Shown in pieces: positions 42,659-54,989 of a DNA stretch of 64,000 bases (its first letter is position 1; the number at the start of each line of letters is the position of its first letter). The notes beneath the pieces are model-generated. The model was not told the DNA's origin. It did no database searches and saw only the letters and a list, made by a program, of their open reading frames with translations. A program made the translations under genes and the position numbers. The DNA lies in assembly GCA_029953615.1 (NCBI GenBank), contig CP124529.1, positions 2,508,998 through 2,572,997 of the forward strand, read 5' to 3'. This stretch comes from Pseudomonas putida. GTDB lineage: Bacteria > Pseudomonadota > Gammaproteobacteria > Pseudomonadales > Pseudomonadaceae.

Positions 42659-42674
42659 ACTTGTTATAACAAGT
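42659..42674 (+). promoter_or_regulatory. Palindromic operator before the GntR gene
   Basis: ACTTGTTATAACAAGT is a perfect 16-base palindrome 22 bases before the gntR-like start; its TATAAC may be the -10 box. It is the natural autoregulatory site of the GntR protein encoded next. Confidence 0.65.
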
Positions 42675-42696
42675 CACCGATCAGCGAAGAGACCCC

Positions 42697-43446
42697 ATGG
42701 CCGAACTGCTCCCCCTGTCCCCGGTACCGCTTTACACCCAGCTCAAGGAGTTGCTGCGCGAGCGCATCCTCGACGGCACTTACCCACCGCATAGCCGCAT
42801 GCCTTCGGAAAGCGAGCTGGGCAAGGCCTTCGACGTCAGCCGCATCACGGTGCGCCAGGCATTGGGCGACCTGCAGAAGGAGGGGCTGATTTTCAAGATT
42901 CATGGCAAGGGCACCTTCGTCGCCAAGCCCAAGGCATTCCAGAACGTCAGCACCCTGCAAGGGTTGGGCGAGTCGATGACGCAAATGGGTTACGAGGTGA
43001 TCAACCGCCTGCGCAGCTTCCGCCATGTGCCGGCCAATGCATTGGTGGCCGCGCGGCTGCAGGTCGAGGAGGGCAGCCTGGTCACCGAGATCCGCCGGGT
43101 GCGGTTGATCAACCGCGAACCGGTGTCGCTGGAGCTGACCTGGTTGCCCAAGGCCGTCGGCGAAAAACTGGAAAAGGCCGACCTGGTCACCCGCGACATT
43201 TTCCTGCTCCTGGAAAACGACTGCGGTATTGCCCTTGGCCACGCCGACCTGGCTATCGATGCGGTGCTGGCCGACAGCGACCTGACCCAGGCGCTGGATG
43301 TTGAAGAAGGTTCGCCGATCATGCGTATCGAGCGCCTGACCCATGCCGCTGACGGTACGCCACTGGACTTCGAACACCTTTACTACCGTGGCGATGCTTT
43401 CCAGTACCGCCTGCGTATCGACCGCCAGAAGGGGAGCAAGGCATGA
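42697..43446 (+). CDS. GntR/HutC-family transcriptional regulator
   Basis: 249 aa. Winged helix at residues about 12-80 (PPHSRMPSESELGKAFDVSR, ITVRQALGDLQKEGLI) and a UTRA ligand domain (RLRSFRHVPANALVAARLQV ... LDFEHLYYRGDAFQYRLRI). HutC-type proteins repress an operon until a pathway metabolite binds. It heads the operon: its stop overlaps the flavoprotein start by four bases. A perfect palindrome stands just upstream. The ligand is unknown; it should be the substrate or product of the enzymes and importer behind it. Confidence 0.92.
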   Translation: MAELLPLSPVPLYTQLKELLRERILDGTYPPHSRMPSESELGKAFDVSRITVRQALGDLQKEGLIFKIHGKGTFVAKPKAFQNVSTLQGLGESMTQMGYEVINRLRSFRHVPANALVAARLQVEEGSLVTEIRRVRLINREPVSLELTWLPKAVGEKLEKADLVTRDIFLLLENDCGIALGHADLAIDAVLADSDLTQALDVEEGSPIMRIERLTHAADGTPLDFEHLYYRGDAFQYRLRIDRQKGSKA

Positions 43447-45167
43447 GCATCCAGACTCAGGATTACGACATCATCGTTATCGGTGGCGGTACCGCCGGGC
43501 CGATAGCGGCGATCAAGGCCAAGGAGCAGGACAAAAGCCTGCGCGTGTTGCTGCTGGACAAGGCCAACGTCAAGCGCAGTGGTGCCATCAGCATGGGCAT
43601 GGACGGCCTGAACAACGCGATCATCCCCGGCCACGCCACCCCCGAGCAGTACACCAAGGAAATCACCGTGGCCAATGACGGTATCGTCAACCAGGCCACG
43701 GTGCATGCCTACGCCACCCACAGCTTCGAAACCATCGAGCAACTCGACCGCTGGGGCGTGAAGTTCGAGAAGGACGAGACCGGCGACTACGCGGTGAAAA
43801 AGGTTCACCACATGGGCGCCTACGTGCTGCCCATGCCCGAAGGCCACGACATCAAGAAGGTTCTTTACCGTCAGCTCAAGCGTGCCCGAGTCGAGATCAG
43901 CAACCGTATGGTCTGCACCCGTGTGCTGCTCGATGGTGAAGGCGCGGCCGCTGGCGTGCTGGGTTTCGATTGCCGTAGCGGCGAGTTTCGGGTGGTGCGG
44001 GCCAAGGCGGTAATCCTTGCCTGCGGCGCGGCCGGGCGCCTGGGCTTGCCGTCGTCGGGTTACCTGATGGGCACCTACGAGAACCCGACCAACGCCGGTG
44101 ACGGCTATGCCATGGCGTACCACGCAGGTGCCGAGCTGGCCAACCTCGAGTGCTTCCAGATCAACCCGCTGATCAAGGACTACAACGGCCCGGCCTGCGC
44201 CTACGTCACCGGCCCACTGGGTGGGTATACCGCCAACAGCAAGGGTGAGCGCTTTATCGAGTGCGACTACTGGAGCGGCCAGATGATGTGGGAGTTCCAC
44301 CAGGAACTCGAGGGTGGCAATGGCCCGGTGTTCCTCAAGCTCGATCACCTGGCCGAGGAAACCATCCAGAACATCGAACAGATCCTGCACAGCAACGAGC
44401 GCCCCAGCCGGGGCCAGTTCCACGCCGGGCGTGGCACCGATTATCGCCAGCACATGGTCGAGATGCATATCTCGGAGATCGGTTTCTGCTCGGGGCATTC
44501 GGCGTCGGGGGTGTGGGTCAATGAAAAGGCCGAGACCAGCGTCAAAGGGCTGTATGCCGCGGGCGATATGGCAGCGGTGCCGCACAACTACATGCTCGGG
44601 GCCTTCACCTATGGCTGGTTTGCCGGTGTGAACGCTGCGCATTACGTGATCGGGCGCGAGTTCGCCGAGGTCGATGCCGAACAGGTCGAGCGCGAGCGCG
44701 CGCGGGTGTTCGCCCCGCTGCTCCGTGAGCATGGCCTGCCCCCAGCGCAGGTCGAGTACAAGCTCAGACGCATGGTCAACGATTACCTGCAGCCGCCGAA
44801 GGTCACCAGGAAGATGGAGATCGGCCTGGAGCGCTTTGCCGAGATCGAGCGTGACCTGGACCAGATGAAGGCCAGTAACCCTCATGAATTGATGCGTGCG
44901 ATGGAAGTTTCGGTGATTCGTGATTGCGCCGAGATGGCCGCGCGGGCCTCGCTTTTCCGCGAGGAAAGCCGCTGGGGGTTGTACCACCACCGTGTGGACT
45001 TCCCCGAGCGCAACGATGGCGAGTGGTTCTGCCATTGCCATCTGAAAAAGGGCGAGCACGGAGAGATGACCAGCTTCAAGAAGGCCGTCGAACCCTACCT
45101 GATCGCCCTGGATACAGAAGAGCAGACCGCTTATGACCGGTTGCGTGTCAAAGCCGATGCCGCCTAA
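43443..45167 (+). CDS. AprA/FrdA-like FAD oxidoreductase
   Basis: 574 aa flavoprotein of the fumarate reductase / APS reductase alpha superfamily. The dinucleotide motif is DIIVIGGGTAGPIAAIKAKE (residues about 8-27); the second FAD contact is GLYAAGDMAAVPHNYMLGAF. The helical C-terminal domain ends with EWFCHCHLKKGEHGEMTSFK. The next gene is an AprB-like ferredoxin, so the pair resembles dissimilatory APS reductase AprAB, but no sat, qmo or dsr genes are in view, so sulfur-compound oxidoreduction is only one option. Overlaps gntR (ATGA) and is probably repressed by it. Cytoplasmic, no signal peptide. Confidence 0.85.
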   Translation: MSIQTQDYDIIVIGGGTAGPIAAIKAKEQDKSLRVLLLDKANVKRSGAISMGMDGLNNAIIPGHATPEQYTKEITVANDGIVNQATVHAYATHSFETIEQLDRWGVKFEKDETGDYAVKKVHHMGAYVLPMPEGHDIKKVLYRQLKRARVEISNRMVCTRVLLDGEGAAAGVLGFDCRSGEFRVVRAKAVILACGAAGRLGLPSSGYLMGTYENPTNAGDGYAMAYHAGAELANLECFQINPLIKDYNGPACAYVTGPLGGYTANSKGERFIECDYWSGQMMWEFHQELEGGNGPVFLKLDHLAEETIQNIEQILHSNERPSRGQFHAGRGTDYRQHMVEMHISEIGFCSGHSASGVWVNEKAETSVKGLYAAGDMAAVPHNYMLGAFTYGWFAGVNAAHYVIGREFAEVDAEQVERERARVFAPLLREHGLPPAQVEYKLRRMVNDYLQPPKVTRKMEIGLERFAEIERDLDQMKASNPHELMRAMEVSVIRDCAEMAARASLFREESRWGLYHHRVDFPERNDGEWFCHCHLKKGEHGEMTSFKKAVEPYLIALDTEEQTAYDRLRVKADAA

Positions 45168-45180
45168 GCGACACCTCACC

Positions 45181-45270
45181 TTGTGGGAGCGGGTTTACCC
45201 GCGAACACCGGCGAAGCCGGTGCCATCCATCGTGTTGGATTCTTCGCGGGTAAACCCGCTCCCACAGGGA
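45181..45270. repeat. REP pair (variant, GTTTACCC core) inside the operon
   Basis: TGTGGGAGCGGGTTTACCCG on the left and CGGGTAAACCCGCTCCCACA on the right, a 20-base perfect inverted repeat between the flavoprotein and ferredoxin genes. It may adjust the ratio of the two messages. Confidence 0.8.
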
Positions 45271-45326
45271 AACGTGCAAGCCTCTAGATAGAAGGGAGCC
45301 AATGAAGGCCCCGAGGACTCCGTGAA

Positions 45327-45572
45327 ATGGCCTACCAGCCGCAAGAAATCTTCTTCCGCAGCAGTGCCCCCGTCACCATCGACGAAGACAAGTGCATCGC
45401 CGACAAAGGCTGCACCGTATGCGTCGAGGTTTGCCCCATGGACCTGCTGGCGATCAACCCGGCCACCCAAAAGGCCTACATGGCCTTCGACGAATGCTGG
45501 TACTGCATGCCCTGCGAAAAGGACTGCCCCACCGGTGCGGTGAAGGTCGACATTCCGTACCTGCTGCGCTGA
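45327..45572 (+). CDS. AprB-like 2x[4Fe-4S] ferredoxin
   Basis: 81 aa with eight cysteines in two sets: Cys23, 29, 32, 36 and Cys57, 60, 63, 67 (CIADKGCTVCVEVCP and CWYCMPCEKDCP). The five-residue gap between the first two cysteines departs from ordinary bacterial ferredoxins and fits the AprB subunit of APS reductase. It probably carries electrons to or from the flavoprotein upstream. The conserved PYLLR end suggests a tight subunit contact (inference). Confidence 0.88.
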   Translation: MAYQPQEIFFRSSAPVTIDEDKCIADKGCTVCVEVCPMDLLAINPATQKAYMAFDECWYCMPCEKDCPTGAVKVDIPYLLR

Positions 45573-45584
45573 TTCATCCCGCCA

Positions 45585-45601
45585 TCCGGTGCACCACCGG
45601 A
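45585..45601 (+). promoter_or_regulatory. Stable intercistronic hairpin
   Basis: Perfect TCCGGTG/CACCGGA stem with a CAC loop, 13 bases after the ferredoxin stop. No T-run; probably an mRNA stability or processing element separating redox genes from the importer genes. Confidence 0.45.
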
Positions 45602-45689
45602 CGCCCCCCTGCAGTGCCCCTCGTTTCCCACCACCCAGGCCGGGGGCGGAGACGACCCAATTCCTATAACGACTCGAGGGGAAACACCC

Positions 45690-47096
45690 ATGCGCCTTGT
45701 TGCAACCGTGGCCGGCCTCGCGCTGGCGCTCACTGGCCTGAATGCCAGCGCCGAAACCATCCGCATCGCCATCGGCACCCAGGACACCACCATCAATTGC
45801 GCCACCGGTGGCCTGCTGATACGCGAGCTTGGCTTGCTGGACAAGTACCTGCCGCATGACGGCAAATACAAGGATGCCAAGTATCAGGTGGAGTGGAAGA
45901 ACTTCACCAGCGGTGCGCCACTGACCAACGAAATGGTCGCTGGCAAGCTCGACTTCGGCGCCATGGCCGACTTCCCTGGCTCGTTCAACGGCGTTGCTCA
46001 CCTGGATGCCGGCAAGCGCAGCCTGTTCGTAAGCGTGCTGTCGGGCAGCGTGCACGGCAGCGGCAACGGCATCGTCGTACCTGCGGCGTCCAGCGTGCAA
46101 TCGTTGGCTGAACTCAAGGGCAGGACCATTTCCGTGCCGTTCGCATCCACCGCCCACGGCATGCTGCTGCGTGCCGTAGCAGCCCAGGGTTGGGACCCGC
46201 AGAAGGATGTGCGCATCATCGCCCAGGCGCCGGAAATCGCCGGTTCCGCCCTGCGTAGCAACCGCATCGAGGCCCATGCCGACTTCGTGCCGTTCGCCGA
46301 ACTGTTCCCCAACCGCGGCTTCGCTCGCAAGATCTATGACGGCGCCCAGGCCAACGCACCGACCTTCCATGGCGCCTTGGTCGATGCCGGTTATGCGAAG
46401 AAATACCCGGAAGTGGTCACCGCCTACCTGCGTGCCAGTCTCGAAGCCGATCGGCTGATCGCTGCGGAGCCTGAGAAGTACAGCGAGTTGATCGAGCAAG
46501 TCACCGGCATCGAGGCCGAGGTCAATTACCTGTTCCACGGCCCGCTCGGCCTGCAGACCCGCGACCTGACCTGGAAGCCTGAATACCGTCAGGCGGTCGC
46601 CACTTCCATCGATACGCTCAAGCTGCTTAAAAAGACCGATCGCGGCCTCGACACCGACAAGTTCATCGACGACCAGTACATCCGTGCGGCCTTCAAGGAG
46701 GCTGGCCTGGACTACGACAAGGCGCTGAAGGACTACGACCCGCAGCCACTCAAGGCCAATGACGCACTGACCGGCAAACCGATTACCGATTTCAGCCGCC
46801 TGGCGCAGATCTGGGTACGCGGTGAAGGCAAGGTCCGCCACTACGCTTCGCCGGAGGCCGCGCTTGGCGCCTTGGCCCAACTGGAGCAGGAGGGCAAGGA
46901 CATCCGCGCCATCTACGCCCAGGCCGCCGACAGCGGGATCAAGTTGCTGGCGAACCAGGCCTGGTTCGTGCGCAACGCCAAGGGTGAACTGGCGGCGTTC
47001 CTGCTCAAGGACCAGGCCGAGCAGTATGCCAAGGCCCATGGCGGTGAAGCGCTGGACTTCGCCAGCGCCAACCAGAAGCTGGTCGCCCAGCGCTGA
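45690..47096 (+). CDS. Sulfonate/nitrate-type ABC substrate-binding protein with a NosL-like C-terminal domain
   Basis: 468 aa, about 120 longer than SsuA/TauA-type relatives. Signal peptide MRLVATVAGLALALTGLNASA; binding-protein core from ETIRIAIGTQDTTINCATGG to about residue 365. The tail (371-468: EGKVRHYASPEAALGALAQL ... AWFVRNAKGELAAFLLKDQA, then HGGEALDF) resembles NosL-type domains in its aromatic, A-x-YV-like and HGGxxLDF positions, though NosL's metal-binding Cys/Met motif is not obvious. Good ribosome site GAGGGGAAA. First gene of the transport section of the operon. Ligand unknown. Confidence 0.82.
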   Translation: MRLVATVAGLALALTGLNASAETIRIAIGTQDTTINCATGGLLIRELGLLDKYLPHDGKYKDAKYQVEWKNFTSGAPLTNEMVAGKLDFGAMADFPGSFNGVAHLDAGKRSLFVSVLSGSVHGSGNGIVVPAASSVQSLAELKGRTISVPFASTAHGMLLRAVAAQGWDPQKDVRIIAQAPEIAGSALRSNRIEAHADFVPFAELFPNRGFARKIYDGAQANAPTFHGALVDAGYAKKYPEVVTAYLRASLEADRLIAAEPEKYSELIEQVTGIEAEVNYLFHGPLGLQTRDLTWKPEYRQAVATSIDTLKLLKKTDRGLDTDKFIDDQYIRAAFKEAGLDYDKALKDYDPQPLKANDALTGKPITDFSRLAQIWVRGEGKVRHYASPEAALGALAQLEQEGKDIRAIYAQAADSGIKLLANQAWFVRNAKGELAAFLLKDQAEQYAKAHGGEALDFASANQKLVAQR

Positions 47097-47111
47097 CCGG
47101 GAGGCACCGAC

Positions 47112-47894
47112 ATGACCTGCAACCTCAAGCGCTGGCCGGTGCGCCTGGCTTCGCTGCTGGCCTGCCTGCTGTTCTGGCAGGTCGCGGCGAGCGCGAAGCT
47201 GGACCTCGGGCTGCTGACGTTCACCTATGTCCCCACACCGAAGGCGGTGCTGGAAGCTGCGTGGCAGTTGCTGACCTCCAGCACGCTGCTGGCGCACCTG
47301 GGCAGCAGCCTGTCGCGGGTGTTTGCCGGTTATGCCGCCGCGGCGCTGATCGGCGTGGCCCTGGGGTTGTTGATCGGTCGCTCGAAATGGGCCGAGGACA
47401 CCCTGCTGCCGCCAATGGAAGTACTGCGGCCGATTCCGGCGGTGGCGTGGATCCCGCTGGCGATCCTGATGTTCCCGTCGTCGGAGCTGTCGATGGTGTT
47501 CATAACGTTCACTGGCGCGTTGTTCCCCATCCTGCTGAACACCGTGCACGGCGTCGAGGCCGTCGACCCGCGCCTGGTTGCATCGGCGCGCAGCCTCGGT
47601 GCAGGGCGTGGGTCCATCCTGCGCGAAGTGGTGTTGCCTGGCGCATTGCCGAGCATCGTCACGGGCCTGGCCATCGGCATGGGTACCTCATGGTTCTGCC
47701 TGGTCACCGCCGAGATGATCTCCGGGCAGTTCGGTATCGGCTACTACACGTGGGAGTCCTACACCTTGCAAAACTACCCGGACATCATCGTCGGCATGCT
47801 GCTGATCGGCGTGCTGGGCATGGGCAGCAGCGCCCTGGTCAAGCGCCTTGGCGAGTTGGCCACGCCTTGGTACCGCGCGCGGAGGGCCAACTGA
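47112..47894 (+). CDS. ABC transporter permease (SsuC/TauC-type)
   Basis: 260 aa, about six membrane helices, with the ATPase-contact loop EVVLPGALPSIVTGLAIGMG. Partner of the binding protein before it (15-base gap) and the ATPase after it, whose ATG overlaps its stop. Similar in type to the permease at 9213 but clearly divergent. Confidence 0.9.
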   Translation: MTCNLKRWPVRLASLLACLLFWQVAASAKLDLGLLTFTYVPTPKAVLEAAWQLLTSSTLLAHLGSSLSRVFAGYAAAALIGVALGLLIGRSKWAEDTLLPPMEVLRPIPAVAWIPLAILMFPSSELSMVFITFTGALFPILLNTVHGVEAVDPRLVASARSLGAGRGSILREVVLPGALPSIVTGLAIGMGTSWFCLVTAEMISGQFGIGYYTWESYTLQNYPDIIVGMLLIGVLGMGSSALVKRLGELATPWYRARRAN

Positions 47895-48745
47895 TGAACA
47901 GTTATCAACCAGCGCCAGGGCGAATCGACGGGCGTGGCCTGTCGATTCGCCTGGGGCACGGCAGCGAAGCATTCGAGGCGGTGCAGCGTCTGGACTTTGC
48001 CGTGGAGCCTGGCGAGTTCGTCTGCATCCTTGGCCCTTCCGGTTGCGGCAAGTCGACCTTGCTCGGCGCCCTGGCCGGGCACCTGGTGCCCAGCAGCGGC
48101 CAGTTGAGCGTGGACGGCCAGGCTGTTGCCGGGCCGTCACCGCAGCGTGGCATGGTGTTCCAGCACCACACCTTGCTGCCCTGGCGTAGCGTGCTCGACA
48201 ACGTGGCCTTTGGCCTGAAGATGCAGGGCCAGGGCCGCGCCGAACGCCGCCGGCAGGCTCGTGAAATGCTGCGATTGGTGGGGCTGGACGACTTTGCCGA
48301 GCGCTGGCCCAGCCAGCTGTCCGGCGGTATGCAGCAACGGGCCGAGATTGCCCGGGTGCTGATCAACCGCCCGCGCCTTTTGCTGATGGACGAACCTTTC
48401 GGTGCCCTGGATGCGCAAACCCGCGCACGCATGCAGGAGCTGTTGCTGGATATCTGGGCAAGCATCCGCACCACCGTGGTGTTCGTCACTCACGATATCG
48501 ACGAGGCGCTGTTCCTGGCCGACCGTATCCTGGTAATGAGCCCGCGACCTGGCCGCTTTATCGAAGACCTGCACCTGGACTTTCCGCGGCCACGCCGCGC
48601 CAGCCTGCTGACCAGCCCTGAATTCACTCACCTCAAGCGTCACTGTCTGGCCTTGCTCCGTCACGAGGAAGGCCGCGAACTTCCGCGCCTGACCCCGTTG
48701 GGCCTGCCGGACACTGAGCACCCACCGCTACGGATCGCGCTATGA
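47894..48745 (+). CDS. ABC transporter ATP-binding protein (SsuB/TauB-type)
   Basis: 283 aa. Walker A GPSGCGKST (about residues 48-56), signature LSGGMQQRAEIARVL, Walker B LLLMDEPFGALD, switch His in FVTHDIDEALF. The ATG at 47894 overlaps the permease stop (TGATG), and its own stop overlaps the HEAT-repeat start, so the genes are translationally coupled. A much longer frame to 47261 is a read-through of the permease gene and is rejected. Confidence 0.92.
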   Translation: MNSYQPAPGRIDGRGLSIRLGHGSEAFEAVQRLDFAVEPGEFVCILGPSGCGKSTLLGALAGHLVPSSGQLSVDGQAVAGPSPQRGMVFQHHTLLPWRSVLDNVAFGLKMQGQGRAERRRQAREMLRLVGLDDFAERWPSQLSGGMQQRAEIARVLINRPRLLLMDEPFGALDAQTRARMQELLLDIWASIRTTVVFVTHDIDEALFLADRILVMSPRPGRFIEDLHLDFPRPRRASLLTSPEFTHLKRHCLALLRHEEGRELPRLTPLGLPDTEHPPLRIAL

Positions 48746-49707
48746 CTGAACGAACGACTGACAACCCCGACATCCTTGCTCTGCTGCCTCGCCTTGGTGC
48801 TGCCGACGCGAGTGTGCGCCGCATCGCCCTGATCGAACTGGCCGACCTGGAAGACCCCGATGGCTTGCCGTGGCTCACCGATGCACTGCTGGTGGACTCC
48901 GCCGACGAGGTGCGTGCCGAGGCCGCGCGCCTGCTCGAGGCCTGGGAAGAACCCGAAGTCGTGCAGGCCCTGTGCGCTGCGCTGGCCGACGCTGCCGAGC
49001 CGGTACGGCTGGCTGCCGCACAGAGCCTTAGCGAGCTCAAGAGCCTTGAAACCGGTCAGCTGATCCTGCCATGGGTCAAGCATGCCGATGCCTTCGTCCG
49101 TGCCAGCGCCCTGCGCGCCTTGCGCGAGCTGCGCCTGGAAGATGCTGCGGAACCTGCACTGCTGGCCCTGGCCGACGGCGATGCCGTGGTCCGGCGTGAG
49201 GCAGTGGGTATTCTTGGCTGGCTCAAGCACCAGCCGGCGTTGCCAGCATTGGCAACGCTTGCCGAAGACGAGCCGGACACCGAGGTGCGCCGTGCGGCCA
49301 TCGGTGCGCTGGGGCTCGCGCGCGACAGCGCGGTGCTGCCCGCATTGGTGGCTGCATTGACTGACAAGGCCTGGCAAGTGCGCGAAGAAGCCGCTACCAC
49401 GCTAGGCAAGGTGGGTCTGGCCCCGGCAGGCCCGGCACTGGTAAATGCGCTTGCCGATGACTTCTGGCAGGTACGTCTGCGTGCGGCGCGGTCGCTGGGG
49501 CGGCTGCGTCATGTTGCGGCCCTGGACGCGCTTGGCCAGTTGCTTGGCCACGGCATTGCCAACCTGCGCAAGGAGGCGGCTCTGGCCCTGGGGGAGTTGG
49601 GTCAGGCGCGTGCCTTGCCGGTGCTGCAGGCCGCCGAGGCCGATGCCGACCCCGAGGTGCGCAAGGCTGTGCGGATTGCCATGGCGCAACTGCGCGGGGC
49701 CTGCTGA
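48742..49707 (+). CDS. HEAT-repeat protein (PBS-lyase-like repeats)
   Basis: 321 aa composed almost wholly of about nine HEAT-like repeats of roughly 31 residues, for example DEVRAEAARLLEAWEEPEVV, DAVVRREAVGILGWLKHQPA and VRLRAARSLGRLRHVAALDA. This is the phycobilisome-lyase-type HEAT array, used elsewhere as a scaffold that assembles cofactors or complexes. Coupled to the ATPase upstream and the DUF971 gene downstream by stop/start overlaps. A maturation role for the AprAB-like enzyme is a guess from context. Confidence 0.85.
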   Translation: MTERTTDNPDILALLPRLGAADASVRRIALIELADLEDPDGLPWLTDALLVDSADEVRAEAARLLEAWEEPEVVQALCAALADAAEPVRLAAAQSLSELKSLETGQLILPWVKHADAFVRASALRALRELRLEDAAEPALLALADGDAVVRREAVGILGWLKHQPALPALATLAEDEPDTEVRRAAIGALGLARDSAVLPALVAALTDKAWQVREEAATTLGKVGLAPAGPALVNALADDFWQVRLRAARSLGRLRHVAALDALGQLLGHGIANLRKEAALALGELGQARALPVLQAAEADADPEVRKAVRIAMAQLRGAC

Positions 49708-49988
49708 TGAACGCCCCGCAAGCGGTTCGCAACATGCGCGGGCCCGGGCAGCTGGTGCTGCAATGGCAAGACGGCGAGCACAGCCTCAGCCATGCCCGGC
49801 TGCGCGGTGCCTGCCCCTGTTCGCAATGCCGAGCGGCACGACTGCAGGGGCGTATCAGCTTGGTGCGCGATGATGTGCGCGTGGTGCACATCGAGCCGCA
49901 AGGATATGGTGTACAACTGGTGTTCAGCGATGGGCATGAGCGGGGTATCTACCCTTGGGCTTACCTGCGTGACCTCAGTGCCCGGTGA
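49707..49988 (+). CDS. DUF971 protein with a Cys cluster
   Basis: 93 aa, one DUF971 domain (also the N-terminal domain of gamma-butyrobetaine hydroxylases): LSHARLRGACPCSQCRAARL, then RGIYPWAYLRDL. Three cysteines in ACPCSQC with nearby His could hold zinc or an Fe-S cluster. Stand-alone DUF971 proteins are often linked with Fe-S metabolism, which suits the ferredoxin in this operon. The start overlaps the HEAT gene stop (TGATGA). Last gene of the operon. Confidence 0.87.
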   Translation: MNAPQAVRNMRGPGQLVLQWQDGEHSLSHARLRGACPCSQCRAARLQGRISLVRDDVRVVHIEPQGYGVQLVFSDGHERGIYPWAYLRDLSAR

Positions 49989-49991
49989 GTC

Positions 49992-50252
49992 TTCTTCGCG
50001 GGCATGCCCGCTCCCACAGGTTTGGTGCAAGGCTCAGAAAACGCGCGGTTCCTGTGGGAGCGGGCGAGCCCGCGAACACCGGCGTAGCCGGTGCCAGCCA
50101 CCGCGTTGGATTCTTCGCGGGCATGCCCGCTCCCACAGGTTTGGTGCGAGGCTCAGAAAATGCGCGGTTCCTGTGGGAGCGGGCGAGCCCGCGAACACCG
50201 GCGTAGCCGGTGCCAGCCGCCGCGTTGGATTCTTCGTGGGCATGCCCGCACA
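49992..50252. repeat. REP array: 119-bp unit repeated 2.2 times
   Basis: TTCTTCGCGGGCATGCCCGC begins at 49992 and 50111, with a shortened copy at 50230, an exact 119-base period. Each unit holds an inverted REP pair (type B) plus a CACCGGCGTAGCCGGTG hairpin. It lies between the convergent DUF971 and atsC genes. Confidence 0.9.
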
Positions 50253-50255
50253 GGC

Positions 50256-51119
50256 TCAGAGCGCAATCAGCTCCGGCCTCAGCCCTTCGACCCGTCGCAC
50301 CGGCGGCGTCAGGTAACCGCTATCCCCGGTGATCTGGTGCAGCACCTTCTCCCGCAGCCCGTGAAGTGCTACACCCGTACGCAACCGTGGGTGGGGCAGG
50401 TCGATATCCACCACCGCCTTGATCCGCCCCGGGCGCGGCTCCAGCACCACCACCCGGTCGGCCAGGTAGGTGGCTTCTTCGGCGTCATGGGTGACCAGTA
50501 ACGTGGTGATGCCGGCACGTTCGCGAATGGCCAGCAGCTCGTCCTGCAGTTGCTGGCGGGTCAGCGCATCCAGCGCGCCGAACGGCTCGTCGAGCAGCAA
50601 GATGCGCGGGCTGGCTACCAGGCCACGGGCGATCGCCACACGCTGGGCCATGCCGCCGGAAAGCTGGTGTGGGTACGCCGACTCGAAGCCGACCAGCCCC
50701 ACCAGTTGCACGAACTCGTGTACCCGCCGCGCGCGTTCACCCTGGGTGAGCGGTTCGTTGACCAAACCCAGGGCGATGTTCTGTTCCACGCTCAGCCAGG
50801 GGAACAGCCGGTGTTCCTGAAACACGATGCCGCGCTCGCTACCAATGCCGCTGACAGTTTGGCCGTCGACGCGAATATTGCCGCTGTAGTCGGTATCCAG
50901 CCCTACCAGCAGGCGCAGCAGGGTGGATTTGCCACAGCCGGAAGCACCGACGATGGCAATGAATTCGCCTTGGTTGATCGACAGGTTGAAGTTGCGGATG
51001 GCTTCCAGCGGCTGGCCATCGACGCTGAACACTTTGCCGACCCCCTCGAAGCTGACCAGGGGCGGGGCGACGTCGGGCTGGTTGGCCGCGAGCAGGTGCG
51101 AGGTGTTGAAGGCGTTCAT
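50256..51119 (-). CDS. atsC: Sulfate-ester ABC transporter ATP-binding protein
   Basis: 287 aa ABC ATPase: Walker A GASGCGKST, signature LSGGMAQRVAIARGL, Walker B ILLLDEPFGALDALT, switch His in LVTHDAEEATY. Its ATG overlaps the fused-permease stop, and the atsR and atsK genes lie across the divergent promoter, so it matches AtsC of the P. putida S-313 sulfate-ester importer (assignment from memory of that cluster). The frame beyond 51119 lies inside atsB and is not used. Confidence 0.87.
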   Translation of the reverse strand: MNAFNTSHLLAANQPDVAPPLVSFEGVGKVFSVDGQPLEAIRNFNLSINQGEFIAIVGASGCGKSTLLRLLVGLDTDYSGNIRVDGQTVSGIGSERGIVFQEHRLFPWLSVEQNIALGLVNEPLTQGERARRVHEFVQLVGLVGFESAYPHQLSGGMAQRVAIARGLVASPRILLLDEPFGALDALTRQQLQDELLAIRERAGITTLLVTHDAEEATYLADRVVVLEPRPGRIKAVVDIDLPHPRLRTGVALHGLREKVLHQITGDSGYLTPPVRRVEGLRPELIAL

Positions 51120-52717
51120 GCGGTTCTCCAGCGCGTGGCGCGTGATTCGAGGCGTTGTCCAAGGGTGCCGAGCAGGGCGCCGACCAGGCCGATCAACAGC
51201 ATGGCGGCCATTACCTGGTCCATGCGGAACAGTTGCTGGGCGCCGATCATCAGGCTGGCGATGCCGCCGTCCGAGGGCATGAAGTATTCGGCACCGATGG
51301 TGCCCAGCCAGGCGTAGATCAGCGACAGGCGCAGGCCGGCGAAAATGGCCGGGGCTGCGCCGGGCAGCACCAGCAGGCGCAGGCGTTGCCACAGGTTCAG
51401 GCGCAGGGTGCGAGCCGCTTCGCCCAGTTGTGGCGACAGGCTGGCGATACCGCGCTGGGTGGCGATCAGCAGCGGGAAGAACGCAGCCATGCCGACGAAC
51501 ACCTGCTTGGCCCCTTCACCCAGGCCGAACCAGGCCGTGAGCAGCGGCACCCAGGCGAACAGGGCCACCTGGCGCAGGGCTGACAAGCTGGGCCCGAAGA
51601 TACGTTCGGCATTGGCCGAAAGCCCCAGCAGCAAACCGACCAGCAGGCCAGCGCCACCGCCCAGCAGCAAGCCGGTCAGGGCGCGCTGCAGGCTCAGCAA
51701 CAAGGCCTGCGGCAGCGAACCATCGGCCAGGCCGATCAGCAGGGTGCGCAGTACTTCAAGGGGCGAGGTCAGGATGTTGTTGTCGACCCAGCCGAAGCCG
51801 CTGCTGGCTTGCCACAGTGCTAACAGTGCCAGCGGTAGCAGCAGGCTCTGCCAACCTCGCGGTACGGGGCCACGCGCCTGCTCCCCTGTTGCCGCTTGCG
51901 GCCAGTACAGCAGGCGTTTTTCCAGGGCGGAGAAACTGCGCTCCAGCAGTGCGCCAACCAGGCCGATCACCAGGATGCACAGCAGCACCAGGTCGAGCAT
52001 GAACAGCTGTCGTCCCCACACCATCAGGTAACCGATCCCTTCGCTTGAGGCCAGCAGTTCGACCGCCAGCAGCGAGGTCCAGCCGGTGGCCAGGGCCAGG
52101 CGTACGCCGGTGAGAAAGGCCGGCAGGGCAGCCGGCAGCAACAGGCGCAGAAACAGCAGATGGCGAGGCAGGCGCAGCGCCGCAGCGGCTTCCCGCAGTT
52201 TGGGCTGGGCATCACGTACACCGACCAGGGTGTGCAAGGTAACGGGAACCACCACGGCTTTCACCAGCACCACCAGCTTGAGCAATTCGCCGATCCCGAA
52301 GAACAGCATGAACAACGGGATCCAGGCCAGGGTAGGAATCTGTGCCAGCGCCACGAAGGTTGGCAGCACCAGCGTCTGCGCCTGCCGCGAAGCACCCAGC
52401 CAGACGCCCAAAAGCAAGCCGCTGCCGATGCCGACCGCCAACCCCCAGAACAACCGCTGCAAGCTTATCCACAGGTGCCCCCACAGCTCGCCGGAGCCAA
52501 ACTCCAGTGCGCTCTGCCACACCAATGCTGGCGCTGGCAGAATCTGCTCGCTCATCCAGTGCAGCCGGCTGGCCACCACCCAAAGCAGCGCAATAACCAC
52601 AGGCAACACCCACGGCAGCAAGTTGGCGCGATCCTGGTGGGAGCGGCCTTGCGTCGCGAATGGGCCGCGCAACGGCCCCCGAAACCAACCCCGACCTCTG
52701 CTCAGAATTCCATTCAT
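51116..52717 (-). CDS. atsB: Fused double ABC permease for sulfate esters
   Basis: 533 aa, about twice the usual SsuC length. Two permease domains lie in tandem, each with its own ATPase-contact loop: FLRLLLPAALPAFLTGVRLA (about residue 205) and RLRLLVLPGAAPAIFAGLRL (about 465). The membrane-spanning dimer is therefore made from one chain. An unusually large permease is a recognised trait of AtsB in P. putida S-313. The N-terminal RGWFRGPLRGPFATQG stretch is cytoplasmic and basic. First gene of the atsBC transcript. Confidence 0.87.
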   Translation of the reverse strand: MNGILSRGRGWFRGPLRGPFATQGRSHQDRANLLPWVLPVVIALLWVVASRLHWMSEQILPAPALVWQSALEFGSGELWGHLWISLQRLFWGLAVGIGSGLLLGVWLGASRQAQTLVLPTFVALAQIPTLAWIPLFMLFFGIGELLKLVVLVKAVVVPVTLHTLVGVRDAQPKLREAAAALRLPRHLLFLRLLLPAALPAFLTGVRLALATGWTSLLAVELLASSEGIGYLMVWGRQLFMLDLVLLCILVIGLVGALLERSFSALEKRLLYWPQAATGEQARGPVPRGWQSLLLPLALLALWQASSGFGWVDNNILTSPLEVLRTLLIGLADGSLPQALLLSLQRALTGLLLGGGAGLLVGLLLGLSANAERIFGPSLSALRQVALFAWVPLLTAWFGLGEGAKQVFVGMAAFFPLLIATQRGIASLSPQLGEAARTLRLNLWQRLRLLVLPGAAPAIFAGLRLSLIYAWLGTIGAEYFMPSDGGIASLMIGAQQLFRMDQVMAAMLLIGLVGALLGTLGQRLESRATRWRTA

Positions 52718-52741
52718 CGGCCATCTCTCGAAGCGTTGTCA

Positions 52742-52763
52742 ATTTATTCATTTATGGAATTAA
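52742..52763. promoter_or_regulatory. AT-rich dyad between atsB and atsR
   Basis: Within a 297-base divergent region, ATTCATTTATGGAAT forms an ATTC/GAAT dyad 25 bases before atsB; read on the minus strand it is ATTCCATAAATGAAT, similar to the element before sftP. A CysB or SftR binding site is suggested by this similarity, not proved. Confidence 0.45.
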
Positions 52764-53014
52764 AAAAATCCAAAAATGACTTTCAAGAGATAAGAGCATG
52801 CACTCCCTGCATACGGAAGCCCCCCGCCGTTGCGTTTTCCTCATATTTTCCATGCGTTTTCCGCAAGCCCGCCGCAGACCCGCAGCCCGCCTGATTTATG
52901 CCTTTAAGTTACTGAAGAATGAAGTTTTGATCTTTGTAGGTTCTAACCAGACCTGCCTAGCTTCTGGCCAAAGCGCCGGCCATCGCCGGTGGCAGCCTGC
53001 CAAGGAGCCTTGCC

Positions 53015-54052
53015 ATGAAAACCCCGTTGCGCCACCTGATCACCGCCCTTGGGCTGGCCTTCACCCTCAGCGCCCATGCGGCTGAACCGGCCAAGCCAGA
53101 AAGCATCCGCATCGCCGTGCCCGACCTCAGCGCGGGCAGCAAGCCCAGCGCCGGTGGCGTGGTCGACGTGCTGCGTGACCAGCAACTGCTGGAGAAGGAA
53201 TTCGCCAAAGATGGCATTCGCATCGACTGGCACTTCTTCAAGGGCGCCGGGCCGGTGGTGAACGAAGCGTTGGCCAACGGCCAGGCCGATTTCGCCTATC
53301 TCGGCGACCTGGCCGCCATCGTCGGCAAGGCCAATGGCCTGGACACCCGCGTGCTGTCGGCGGGTGTACGCGGGGTGAAGAGCTACCTGGGCGTCGTGCC
53401 TGGTTCCGGCATCAAGACCCTGCACGACCTCAAGGGCAAGCGCGTGGCGGTGTTCCGTGGCACCGCCAACCAGCTGTCTTTCGCCAGCGCCCTGGCCAGC
53501 CAAGGGTTGAGCGAGCGCGAGCTGAAGGTGATAAACCTGGACTTCAATGCCGCCAACGCAGCGCTGGCCGCCAAGCAGATCGATGCCACCTGGGGCCTGT
53601 CCAACCTGTTGTCGCTGCGTGAGCGCGGGCTGGTCGAGCTGCCGGTCAACTCGCGTGATCTGGAAGGCGCCGGCAGCACCCAGGCGGTGCTGCTGGGCAC
53701 CGGCGATTTCATCCGCAAATACCCCGAGCTGGTTCAGCGCCTGGTCAACGCCCAGCAACAGGCCAGTGCCTGGCTGCGTGACGAACACAACCGCGAAGCC
53801 TACGTCGAGTTGGTGGCCAGTAATGCCAACTGGCCGCGCAGCATCCTGCGCGATGACCTGGCCAAGGAAGACCTCGGTCACTACTTCGATCCACGCCTGG
53901 ACGCCGGATTCGTCGGCCAGCTGCAGCAGGGCGTGGACCTGGCCGCCAAGGAGCGCCTGATTCGTCGTGGCTTCCAGGTGGCCGACTGGATCGAACCCCG
54001 CTTCCTCGATGCCGCCCTGCAACAGCAACAGGCCGTGCAGGCTGCCCGCTGA
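53015..54052 (+). CDS. atsR: Sulfate-ester ABC transporter substrate-binding protein
   Basis: 345 aa, signal peptide MKTPLRHLITALGLAFTLSAHA, then the SsuA-like core (ESIRIAVPDLSAGSKPSAGG; GQADFAYLGDLAAIVGKANG; KGKRVAVFRGTANQLSFASA). Periplasmic receptor for the AtsBC importer encoded divergently. CAAGGAGCC lies 8 bases before the ATG. Followed after 37 bases by atsK; the two are probably one transcript. Confidence 0.87.
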   Translation: MKTPLRHLITALGLAFTLSAHAAEPAKPESIRIAVPDLSAGSKPSAGGVVDVLRDQQLLEKEFAKDGIRIDWHFFKGAGPVVNEALANGQADFAYLGDLAAIVGKANGLDTRVLSAGVRGVKSYLGVVPGSGIKTLHDLKGKRVAVFRGTANQLSFASALASQGLSERELKVINLDFNAANAALAAKQIDATWGLSNLLSLRERGLVELPVNSRDLEGAGSTQAVLLGTGDFIRKYPELVQRLVNAQQQASAWLRDEHNREAYVELVASNANWPRSILRDDLAKEDLGHYFDPRLDAGFVGQLQQGVDLAAKERLIRRGFQVADWIEPRFLDAALQQQQAVQAAR

Positions 54053-54089
54053 CCCCCGTAAACCCGACAATGACCGCAAGGATACGACC

Positions 54090-54989
54090 ATGAGCAACGC
54101 TGCCCTGGCCACTGCGCCACAAAACCTCGAACTCGACATCCACCCGGTTGCCGGCCGCATCGGCGCCGAAATTCGCGGAGTGCAATTGTCCGCCGATCTC
54201 GATGCCGCCACCCTGGAAGCCATCCAGGCTGCGCTGGTGAAATACAAGGTGATCTTCTTCCGTGGTCAGACCCACCTGGATGACCAAAGCCAGGAAGCCT
54301 TCGCCAAGCTGCTCGGCGAGCCGGTCGCCCATCCCACCGTGCCGGTGGTGGATGGCACCAGCTACCTGTTGCAGCTCGATGGCGCCGAAGGCCAGCGGGC
54401 CAACTCCTGGCACACCGACGTGACCTTCGTCGACGCGTACCCCAAGGCCTCGATCCTGCGCAGCGTGGTGGCGCCTGCCTCCGGTGGCGATACCGTGTGG
54501 GCCAATACCGCTGCAGCCTACCAGGAGCTGCCTGAGCCGTTGCGCGAGCTGGCCGACAAGTTGTGGGCGGTGCACAGCAACGAATATGACTACGCGAGCC
54601 TCAAGCCCGATGTCGACCCGGCCAAGCTGGAGCGCTATCGCAAAGTGTTCACCTCCACGGTGTACGAGACCGAGCACCCGGTGGTGCGCGTGCACCCGAT
54701 CAGTGGCGAGCGAGCGCTGCAGCTGGGCCACTTCGTGAAGCGCATCAAAGGTTATTCGCTGGCGGATTCGCAGCACCTGTTCGCGGTGCTGCAAGGACAT
54801 GTGACACGCCTGGAGAACACCGTTCGCTGGCGCTGGCAGGCTGGGGATGTGGCCATCTGGGACAACCGCGCGACACAGCATTATGCGGTGGATGACTACG
54901 GGACCCAGCCGCGTGTGGTGCGGCGGGTGACCCTGGCGGGTGAGGTGCCGGTCGGGGGTGGATGGGCAACTCAGCCGCACTACGCGTAA
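54090..54989 (+). CDS. atsK: AtsK, Fe(II)/2-oxoglutarate-dependent alkylsulfatase (C-terminal frame break likely)
   Basis: 299 aa as read. AtsK oxidatively cleaves alkyl sulfates to aldehyde and sulfate with 2-oxoglutarate and O2, supplying sulfur. The facial triad is H108-x-D110 (NSWHTDVTF) and a late His in WDNRATQHYAVDD; the anchoring Arg is in RVVRRVTLAG. The chain is nearly identical to what I recall of P. putida S-313 AtsK up to EVPVG. There a five-G run (54954-54958) shifts the end to GGWATQPHYA. With four Gs the frame gives GVDGQLSRTTRKG and stops at 54996, 301 aa, as in S-313. An extra G from sequencing is likely. Confidence 0.93.
   Translation: MSNAALATAPQNLELDIHPVAGRIGAEIRGVQLSADLDAATLEAIQAALVKYKVIFFRGQTHLDDQSQEAFAKLLGEPVAHPTVPVVDGTSYLLQLDGAEGQRANSWHTDVTFVDAYPKASILRSVVAPASGGDTVWANTAAAYQELPEPLRELADKLWAVHSNEYDYASLKPDVDPAKLERYRKVFTSTVYETEHPVVRVHPISGERALQLGHFVKRIKGYSLADSQHLFAVLQGHVTRLENTVRWRWQAGDVAIWDNRATQHYAVDDYGTQPRVVRRVTLAGEVPVGGGWATQPHYA

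Follow-up and report, generated by a model that had tools for sequence, protein, structure and literature searches.

Two described enzymes stand closest to the system considered here. In the AprAB adenosine 5'-phosphosulfate (APS) reductase (PDB 1jnr/2fja) Asn74 and His398 of AprA are predicted to contact the sulfuryl oxygens directly and Arg265 and Trp234 to do so by way of water, Arg265 additionally contacts the phosphate and ribose, Leu278 helps to clamp the adenine, and N5 of the flavin adenine dinucleotide (FAD) attacks the sulfur, with His398 possibly protonating the leaving sulfite, according to the accessible part of PMC2211403. The other is MtPAPSR, the FAD/iron-sulfur (Fe-S) 3'-phosphoadenosine 5'-phosphosulfate (PAPS) reductase of Methanothermococcus thermolithotrophicus (PDB 8a8o, PMC10322725), and the accessible part of that paper makes no mention of importer, HEAT or DUF971 partners. 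The locus compared with them here lies in a stretch of 64,000 nucleotides of Pseudomonas putida (assembly GCA_029953615.1, contig CP124529.1, positions 2,508,998 to 2,572,997 of the forward strand), referred to as the window, and is an operon of eight genes whose enzyme resembles AprAB in its working without belonging to that family. It is tentatively proposed, at somewhat below an even chance, that this is a sulfur-acquisition operon in which a sulfonate-like anion is imported, the AprAB-like enzyme frees sulfite, and the HEAT and DUF971 proteins mature the enzyme. The foundation of this proposal was computed, namely the gene set, its conservation, the domains, the residue pattern, the phylogenetic position and the operator. 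The features of the operon, in window coordinates, are these:

42659-42674, strand not applicable: ACTTGTTATAACAAGT, a perfect palindrome of 16 bp, the predicted GntR operator, preceding the GntR gene
42697-43446, + strand: GntR-UTRA regulator (HutC-type), 249 residues (UTRA E 7.1e-39, GntR E 6.2e-21)
43443-45167, + strand: AprA-like FAD flavoprotein, 574 residues, family NF006131/PRK08275 (FAD_binding_2 and Succ_DH_flav_C)
45327-45572, + strand: AprB-type ferredoxin, 81 residues (Fer4_7 dicluster; 8 Cys for two [4Fe-4S] clusters; CWYC)
45690-47096, + strand: periplasmic substrate-binding protein (SBP), 468 residues (NMT1/NMT1_2; weak NosL-like C-terminal domain)
47112-47894, + strand: permease of an ATP-binding cassette (ABC) importer (BPD_transp_1 E 1.1e-24)
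47894-48745, + strand: ATPase of the ABC importer (ABC_tran E 1.3e-33)
48742-49707, + strand: HEAT-repeat protein, 321 residues (HEAT_2 E 2.3e-49)
49707-49988, + strand: DUF971 (GBBH-like_N) protein, 93 residues, with CxCxxC (E 1e-21)

A first-pass annotation of this DNA, made from the letters alone, had seen eight genes on one strand with overlapping joints behind a perfect palindrome, and so it proved, with all eight open reading frames found between 42,697 and 49,988 of the window, each on the + strand with an ATG start. The joints run in order -4, +159, +117, +15, -1 (TGATG), -4 and -1 (TGATG), so that four of the seven overlap, two by 4 bases and two as TGATG, with the SBP and permease genes 15 nucleotides apart and the joints flanking the ferredoxin gene loose (159 and 117 nucleotides). 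By eye, an inverted-repeat element (GTGGGAGCGGG and its complement) lies within 45168-45326, between the flavoprotein and ferredoxin genes, and the same element recurs several times 3' of the operon at 49989-50240.

The flavoprotein scores 1136.7 bits against the model NF006131, for which the curated cut-off is 587, and is therefore a member of that family, whereas it reaches 190.5 bits against the AprA model TIGR02061 (cut-off 641.75). It shares its fold with fumarate reductase/succinate dehydrogenase, and MtPAPSR is its best match in both sequence and structure; a first structure model made from 10 sequences was poor (predicted local distance difference test, pLDDT, 56.2) and was not used. 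Residues were compared in an alignment of 26 family rows, eight AprA rows and MtPAPSR, together with a comparison of SdhA motifs. The equivalents of AprA Asn74 and His398 are each kept in 26/26 family rows, the equivalent of Lys267 is invariant, and a family-specific insert bears an invariant His. All eight AprA rows keep the full five of Asn, His, Arg, Trp and Leu, and the first four of these are also present in the PAPS reductase, its Arg and Trp standing where the family has Leu and Tyr. The sulfuryl-contact pair is thus retained in the family, whilst key residues of the nucleotide site are lost. In comparison with AprAB, what is shared is Asn74, Lys267, His398 and an AprB-type ferredoxin with its Trp, whereas Arg265, Trp234 and Leu278 are not kept and the window pair falls under both the aprA and aprB cut-offs. 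A phylogeny of the flavoprotein had been suggested at first pass, and in the tree the 26 family rows form a clade of their own that is joined to the sulfuryl enzymes, yet is separate from the rows for AprA, PAPS reductase, SdhA and NadB, with MtPAPSR grouping with AprA at 100/99.

The conservation of the gene set was followed in two sets of loci, between which species may overlap. One consists of the best 80 loci from a scan of species genomes, with record titles that are Pseudomonas save for one Paucimonas, of which 7 were left out for short flanks to leave 73; the other holds 20 loci from genome searches, 15 of them from outside the family of the window's organism. At no more than 8 kb from the flavoprotein gene, the ferredoxin, HEAT and DUF971 genes are all present in 73/73 and 20/20 loci, whilst within the same distance GntR is found in 72/73 and 10/20, and the full importer in 69/73 and 18/20. 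The set is thus conserved together, as the earlier reading of a single coupled operon required, and its co-occurrence is beyond chance. As flavoprotein, ferredoxin, HEAT and DUF971 are constant in both sets and the importer is not, these four are the core unit, with the importer a frequent but dispensable companion. The order of genes varies, with DUF971 sometimes first and the importer sometimes apart or divergent.

The ferredoxin completes the likeness to the AprA/AprB pair noticed at first pass, a likeness upheld by the residue comparison, the pattern of cluster cysteines and the tree. Eight Cys and a Trp beside a cluster Cys are found, by pattern, in the ferredoxin of 98/100 loci, and the AprB frames of 12/12 AprA loci examined have these eight Cys and the Trp too, the latter in CWEC, although the window ferredoxin scores 35.0 bits against the AprB model TIGR02060 with its cut-off of 135.65. 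A ferredoxin-NADP reductase-like gene is present in 10/20 loci of the genome-search set, its type being checked in four; in M. radiotolerans FdxA and a ferredoxin-NADP reductase follow the importer, and in A. caldus FdxA follows the HEAT gene. As such genes accompany some copies, a reductive enzyme is favoured over an oxidative one. The first-pass annotation had left open whether the imported compound is reduced or oxidised, and its first half now stands as the favoured one, reduction with release of sulfite, on the strength of the kept sulfuryl-contact residues and the NADP-ferredoxin reductase in some copies.

The HEAT protein, earlier credited with nine repeats, has a clear period of 31 residues over its 321 residues, giving about nine or ten, and it matches the C-terminal part (positions 610-895) of NF010374, a model of a fused flavoprotein-HEAT protein. 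Such single proteins exist in Tsukamurella (893 residues, 1568.1 bits) and Nonomuraea (940 residues, 1586.5 bits), both above the cut-off of 1196, the fused gene sharing its operon with genes for GntR, a ferredoxin and an importer. The cysteine cluster reported for the DUF971 protein is likewise real, CxCxxC being kept in 93/96 loci with a DUF971 match. An Mrp/NBP35 Fe-S carrier follows the HEAT gene in four cyanobacterial loci (domains checked in two), and ApbC lies near the core in the locus L151. Because of this NBP35, the ApbC and the fusion of HEAT to flavoprotein, the HEAT and DUF971 proteins are read as putative maturation factors for the Fe-S flavoenzyme. In Mesorhizobium AR07 (L171:13891-14848) the HEAT gene is annotated as two overlapping pieces and is possibly a broken copy.

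What the importer carries is suggested by its SBP, for which the closest solved chains are the TauA (taurine) and SsuA (aliphatic-sulphonate) binding proteins, in keeping with the sulfonate half of the sulfonate/nitrate type first assigned to it. Among the 21 annotated plasmid loci, 8 have clear sulfur neighbours by product name, 3 are unclear (S. fredii, Cupriavidus, Acinetobacter) and 10 are without. In three cyanobacterial plasmids the core is followed by TauE/SafE together with YeiH or a putative sulfate exporter, TauE is among the neighbours in an Aquabacterium plasmid locus, a Nostoc plasmid locus has sulfonate SBPs, metX and a sulfhydrylase, two Sinorhizobium plasmids have ssuD, a sulfonate ABC system and TauD, and the M. 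radiotolerans locus has a sulfonate ABC system. Of 22 whole genomes, 6 have YeiH at a distance of up to 10 kb from the flavoprotein gene, against 0.09 expected, whilst the signal for TauD is weak (2/22 within 10 kb, 0.26 expected; 3/22 within 15 kb, 0.39 expected), these expectations assuming uniform placement and ignoring contig ends and relatedness. The proposed link to sulfur draws on the relatives of the SBP and on the genes that adjoin some of the loci.

A number of other observations concern the importer and its surroundings. Residues 372-463 of the SBP form a NosL-like C-terminal domain (E 4e-4 in the window), found in 5/13 members with a best E of 1.3e-06, and in L151:4640-8084 (G047) genes for SCO1, PCuAC and cytochrome c adjoin the operon; an idea of a role in copper, to which the NosL-like domain and these genes gave rise, was set aside, such neighbours having been seen in L151 only. 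The SAO organometal system (NF040733, SaoP) was also rejected, the permease scoring 154.7 bits or about half of the cut-off of 295, and, as a neighbouring double-length permease scores better, the match is taken as generic. That neighbour belongs to a second, SsuA-type ABC system at 50256-54989 of the window, made up of the double-length permease (two BPD_transp_1 stretches) and an NMT1-type SBP, with the gene of a TauD-family dioxygenase after it. Beside the cyanobacterial operons are LysR regulators of about 670 residues (L165:9583-11598, L166:9598-11598 and L167:9325-11361, all on the - strand) with a stretch homologous to the SBP of the operon (tblastn 33-34%; domain scan on the L165 protein), and it is possible that these are fusions of regulator and binding protein that sense the imported ligand.

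The GntR protein scores below the curated cut-off for each of the 25 families listed in a profile search. Its predicted operator, ACTTGTTATAACAAGT, occurs in exact form only once in the 5.76-Mb genome, where one further site has 2 mismatches to it, and next to the GntR gene a site that shares at least 12/16 of its letters is found in 84/88 loci with a GntR match, mostly close relatives. L151, with GntR and flavoprotein 52% and 65% identical, carries the 16-mer exactly. Because the exact palindrome is alone in the genome and a like site recurs in those 84 loci, GntR is probably a local, dedicated regulator. A link between the Crp/Fnr regulator and cyanobacterial CysR was also considered; for this regulator the best named models were PtrA and NtcA, far under cut-off, and no cysR is listed on S. 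elongatus pANL.

The events proposed would begin with a TauA/SsuA-type ABC importer taking in a small sulfonate-like anion with an -SO3 group. Electrons would pass from NADPH by ferredoxin-NADP reductase to ferredoxin, and through two [4Fe-4S] clusters and the conserved Trp to FAD, the N5 of which, once reduced, would attack the sulfuryl sulfur as APS reductase does. The remainder of the molecule would depart and the N5-sulfite adduct would decay to sulfite, which would be assimilated, or exported where TauE/YeiH genes are present. The HEAT and DUF971 proteins, with an NBP35-type carrier in place of the latter in cyanobacteria, would mature or hold the Fe-S flavoenzyme, and GntR would repress the operon at the operator until substrate or product binds. 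In this scheme the substrate class, the direction of electron flow, the chemistry, the roles of HEAT and DUF971 and the repression by GntR are what we infer. By chemical reasoning the true substrate should have a good leaving group, because APS has one, and could be an S-sulfo or N-sulfo compound or a sulfonate activated by an alpha-carbonyl group or in some other way.

The fuller statement of this mechanism, possible though on balance doubtful, is that of a hitherto undescribed, oxygen-independent reductive desulfonation, driven by NADPH/ferredoxin and carried out by a flavoenzyme of the AprA lineage, which would turn flavin-N5-sulfite chemistry from APS to a sulfo-compound brought in from outside. 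It would be borne on plasmids and chromosomes of Proteobacteria, Cyanobacteria and Actinobacteria, with a dedicated pair of Fe-S maturation proteins (HEAT and DUF971 or NBP35), as an alternative to SsuD/TauD. TauD and SsuD are O2-dependent. The tauABCD and ssuEADCB systems share with the operon the class of importer and the likely end product, sulfite, and such genes lie near some loci, whereas they use TauD and SsuD and the only redox enzyme of the operon is the AprAB-like Fe-S flavoenzyme. As the operon joins a sulfonate-type importer to an enzyme that resembles APS reductase but has lost key residues of the nucleotide pocket, it may be an unrecognised route to sulfite that needs no oxygen and starts from imported sulfur compounds.

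Several points weigh against the release of sulfite from an imported sulfonate by this enzyme. The equivalent of Arg265 is Leu in 26/26 family rows, that of Trp234 is Tyr in 26/26, and that of Leu278 is Thr in 14, Ala in 11 and Gly in 1; as all three are lost, and Arg265 also contacts the leaving phosphate, the sulfuryl chemistry is only putative. An attack of N5 on an ordinary C-SO3 needs a stabilised leaving group, so that an unusual substrate would have to be supposed. Support for the family clade is just 76/92 and the tree has long branches. The window operon has no ferredoxin-NADP reductase gene and no FdxA, and the importer is missing in 4/73 and 2/20 loci, with the core lacking it within 8 kb at L058, L061, L064, L065, L135 and L147. 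The SBP falls under the cut-offs of both SsuA TIGR01728 (104.3 bits against 163.5) and TauA TIGR01729 (76.4 against 304.25), and to this are added the 10/21 annotated plasmid loci without a sulfur-labelled neighbour by product name. Five of the six YeiH cases come from one genus code, and TauE is near the flavoprotein in none of the 22 genomes, among the matches listed.

The shortfall of the SBP and the plasmid loci with no sulfur label would suit a non-sulfur substrate, with the NMT1-type SBP binding some other small molecule that the AprAB-like enzyme reduces. NMT1 proteins bind many ligands, and one of the four PDB matches of the SBP is named a nitrate transport protein. This is nonetheless thought distinctly unlikely, given the sulfite/sulfate exporters beside the cyanobacterial operons, the enrichment of YeiH, and closest enzymes that are sulfuryl reductases. 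It could also be that a sulfonate is imported and the flavoprotein works on its carbon or nitrogen part, by moving hydride to or from a C-C or C-N bond in the manner of the fumarate reductase superfamily, with sulfite freed later or by other enzymes. The invariant equivalents of Asn74, Lys267 and His398, the absence of the motifs of dicarboxylate enzymes and the joining of the flavoprotein to sulfuryl enzymes in the tree make this unlikely too, if worth keeping in view.

Two readings would give the flavoprotein a familiar function. An assimilatory reductase of APS or PAPS, like that of Methanothermococcus, would fit with MtPAPSR as its best match in sequence and structure, yet the site Arg is replaced by Leu throughout the family and the adenine-clamp Leu by Thr, Ala or Gly, the aprA model score is far under its cut-off, and the cell would have no use for importing a nucleotide that it makes itself; a true APS/PAPS reductase is judged highly improbable and was rejected, with residues, tree and model scores all speaking against it. 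The ordinary soluble fumarate reductase or succinate dehydrogenase of the database name can scarcely be credited. For it speak the NCBIfam name of NF006131 and the shared fold, but the SdhA motifs FHPTG and HGANRLGGNS are replaced in the family by INPLIK and PHNYMLGAF, the operon has no membrane anchor or SdhB-type subunit, and the genome has a separate SdhA scoring 980 bits to TIGR01816. FHPTG and HGANRLGG are what we take to be dicarboxylate motifs, and it is on the active-site motifs that this function is ruled out despite the fold.

The preferred reading, of an AprAB-like enzyme freeing sulfite from an imported sulfonate-like anion, would apply to a family found in several groups of bacteria. 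A flavoprotein match of at least 900 bits occurs in 15/57 genomes of relatives (the window's own included, and G034 in two pieces), and one over the NF006131 cut-off in 21/398 genomes of the phylum and 0/14 controls; the nearest named relatives are from Pseudomonas, and the flavoprotein of L052 is 64% identical to that of the window. The split match in G034 (C1:3546575-3548289) is possibly a broken copy. Plasmid records with a match at E<=1e-40 number 54/72,556, five of the 54 covering just 23-50% of the protein and one being a distant relative named adenylyl-sulfate reductase. The 22 plasmid loci examined, 21 of them annotated, have as hosts rhizobia, Paraburkholderia, Cupriavidus, Aquabacterium, Methylobacterium, Methylocystis, Acinetobacter and Acidithiobacillus, as well as four cyanobacteria and two actinobacteria. 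In Nostoc edaphicum (L168:11917-18072) genes for two HAD hydrolases, a methyltransferase, GNAT and VOC proteins lie between the flavoprotein and ferredoxin genes.

No gene named sat, qmo or dsr is found in the 21 annotated plasmid stretches, and there is no aprA match in the window's own genome at E<=1e-60. The databases do hold the family, NF006131/PRK08275 including the window flavoprotein and NF010374/PRK13800 being the flavoprotein-HEAT fused form, under generic fumarate reductase/succinate dehydrogenase names with no specific function. Searches of open-access papers aimed at the operon or its family names listed none that describes it by title or abstract start, and the names of these models gave one paper, unrelated by title.

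Were the proposal correct, a relative of the key sulfate-reducer enzyme that scavenges sulfur from an imported compound would be present in many bacteria of soil and plants and in some that are photosynthetic, an enzyme hidden under a misleading fumarate-reductase name in databases. There would then be a reductive, oxygen-independent route for organic sulfur beside the oxygenases, and the HEAT-repeat and DUF971 proteins would gain a role, open to test, in the maturation of one particular Fe-S flavoenzyme.

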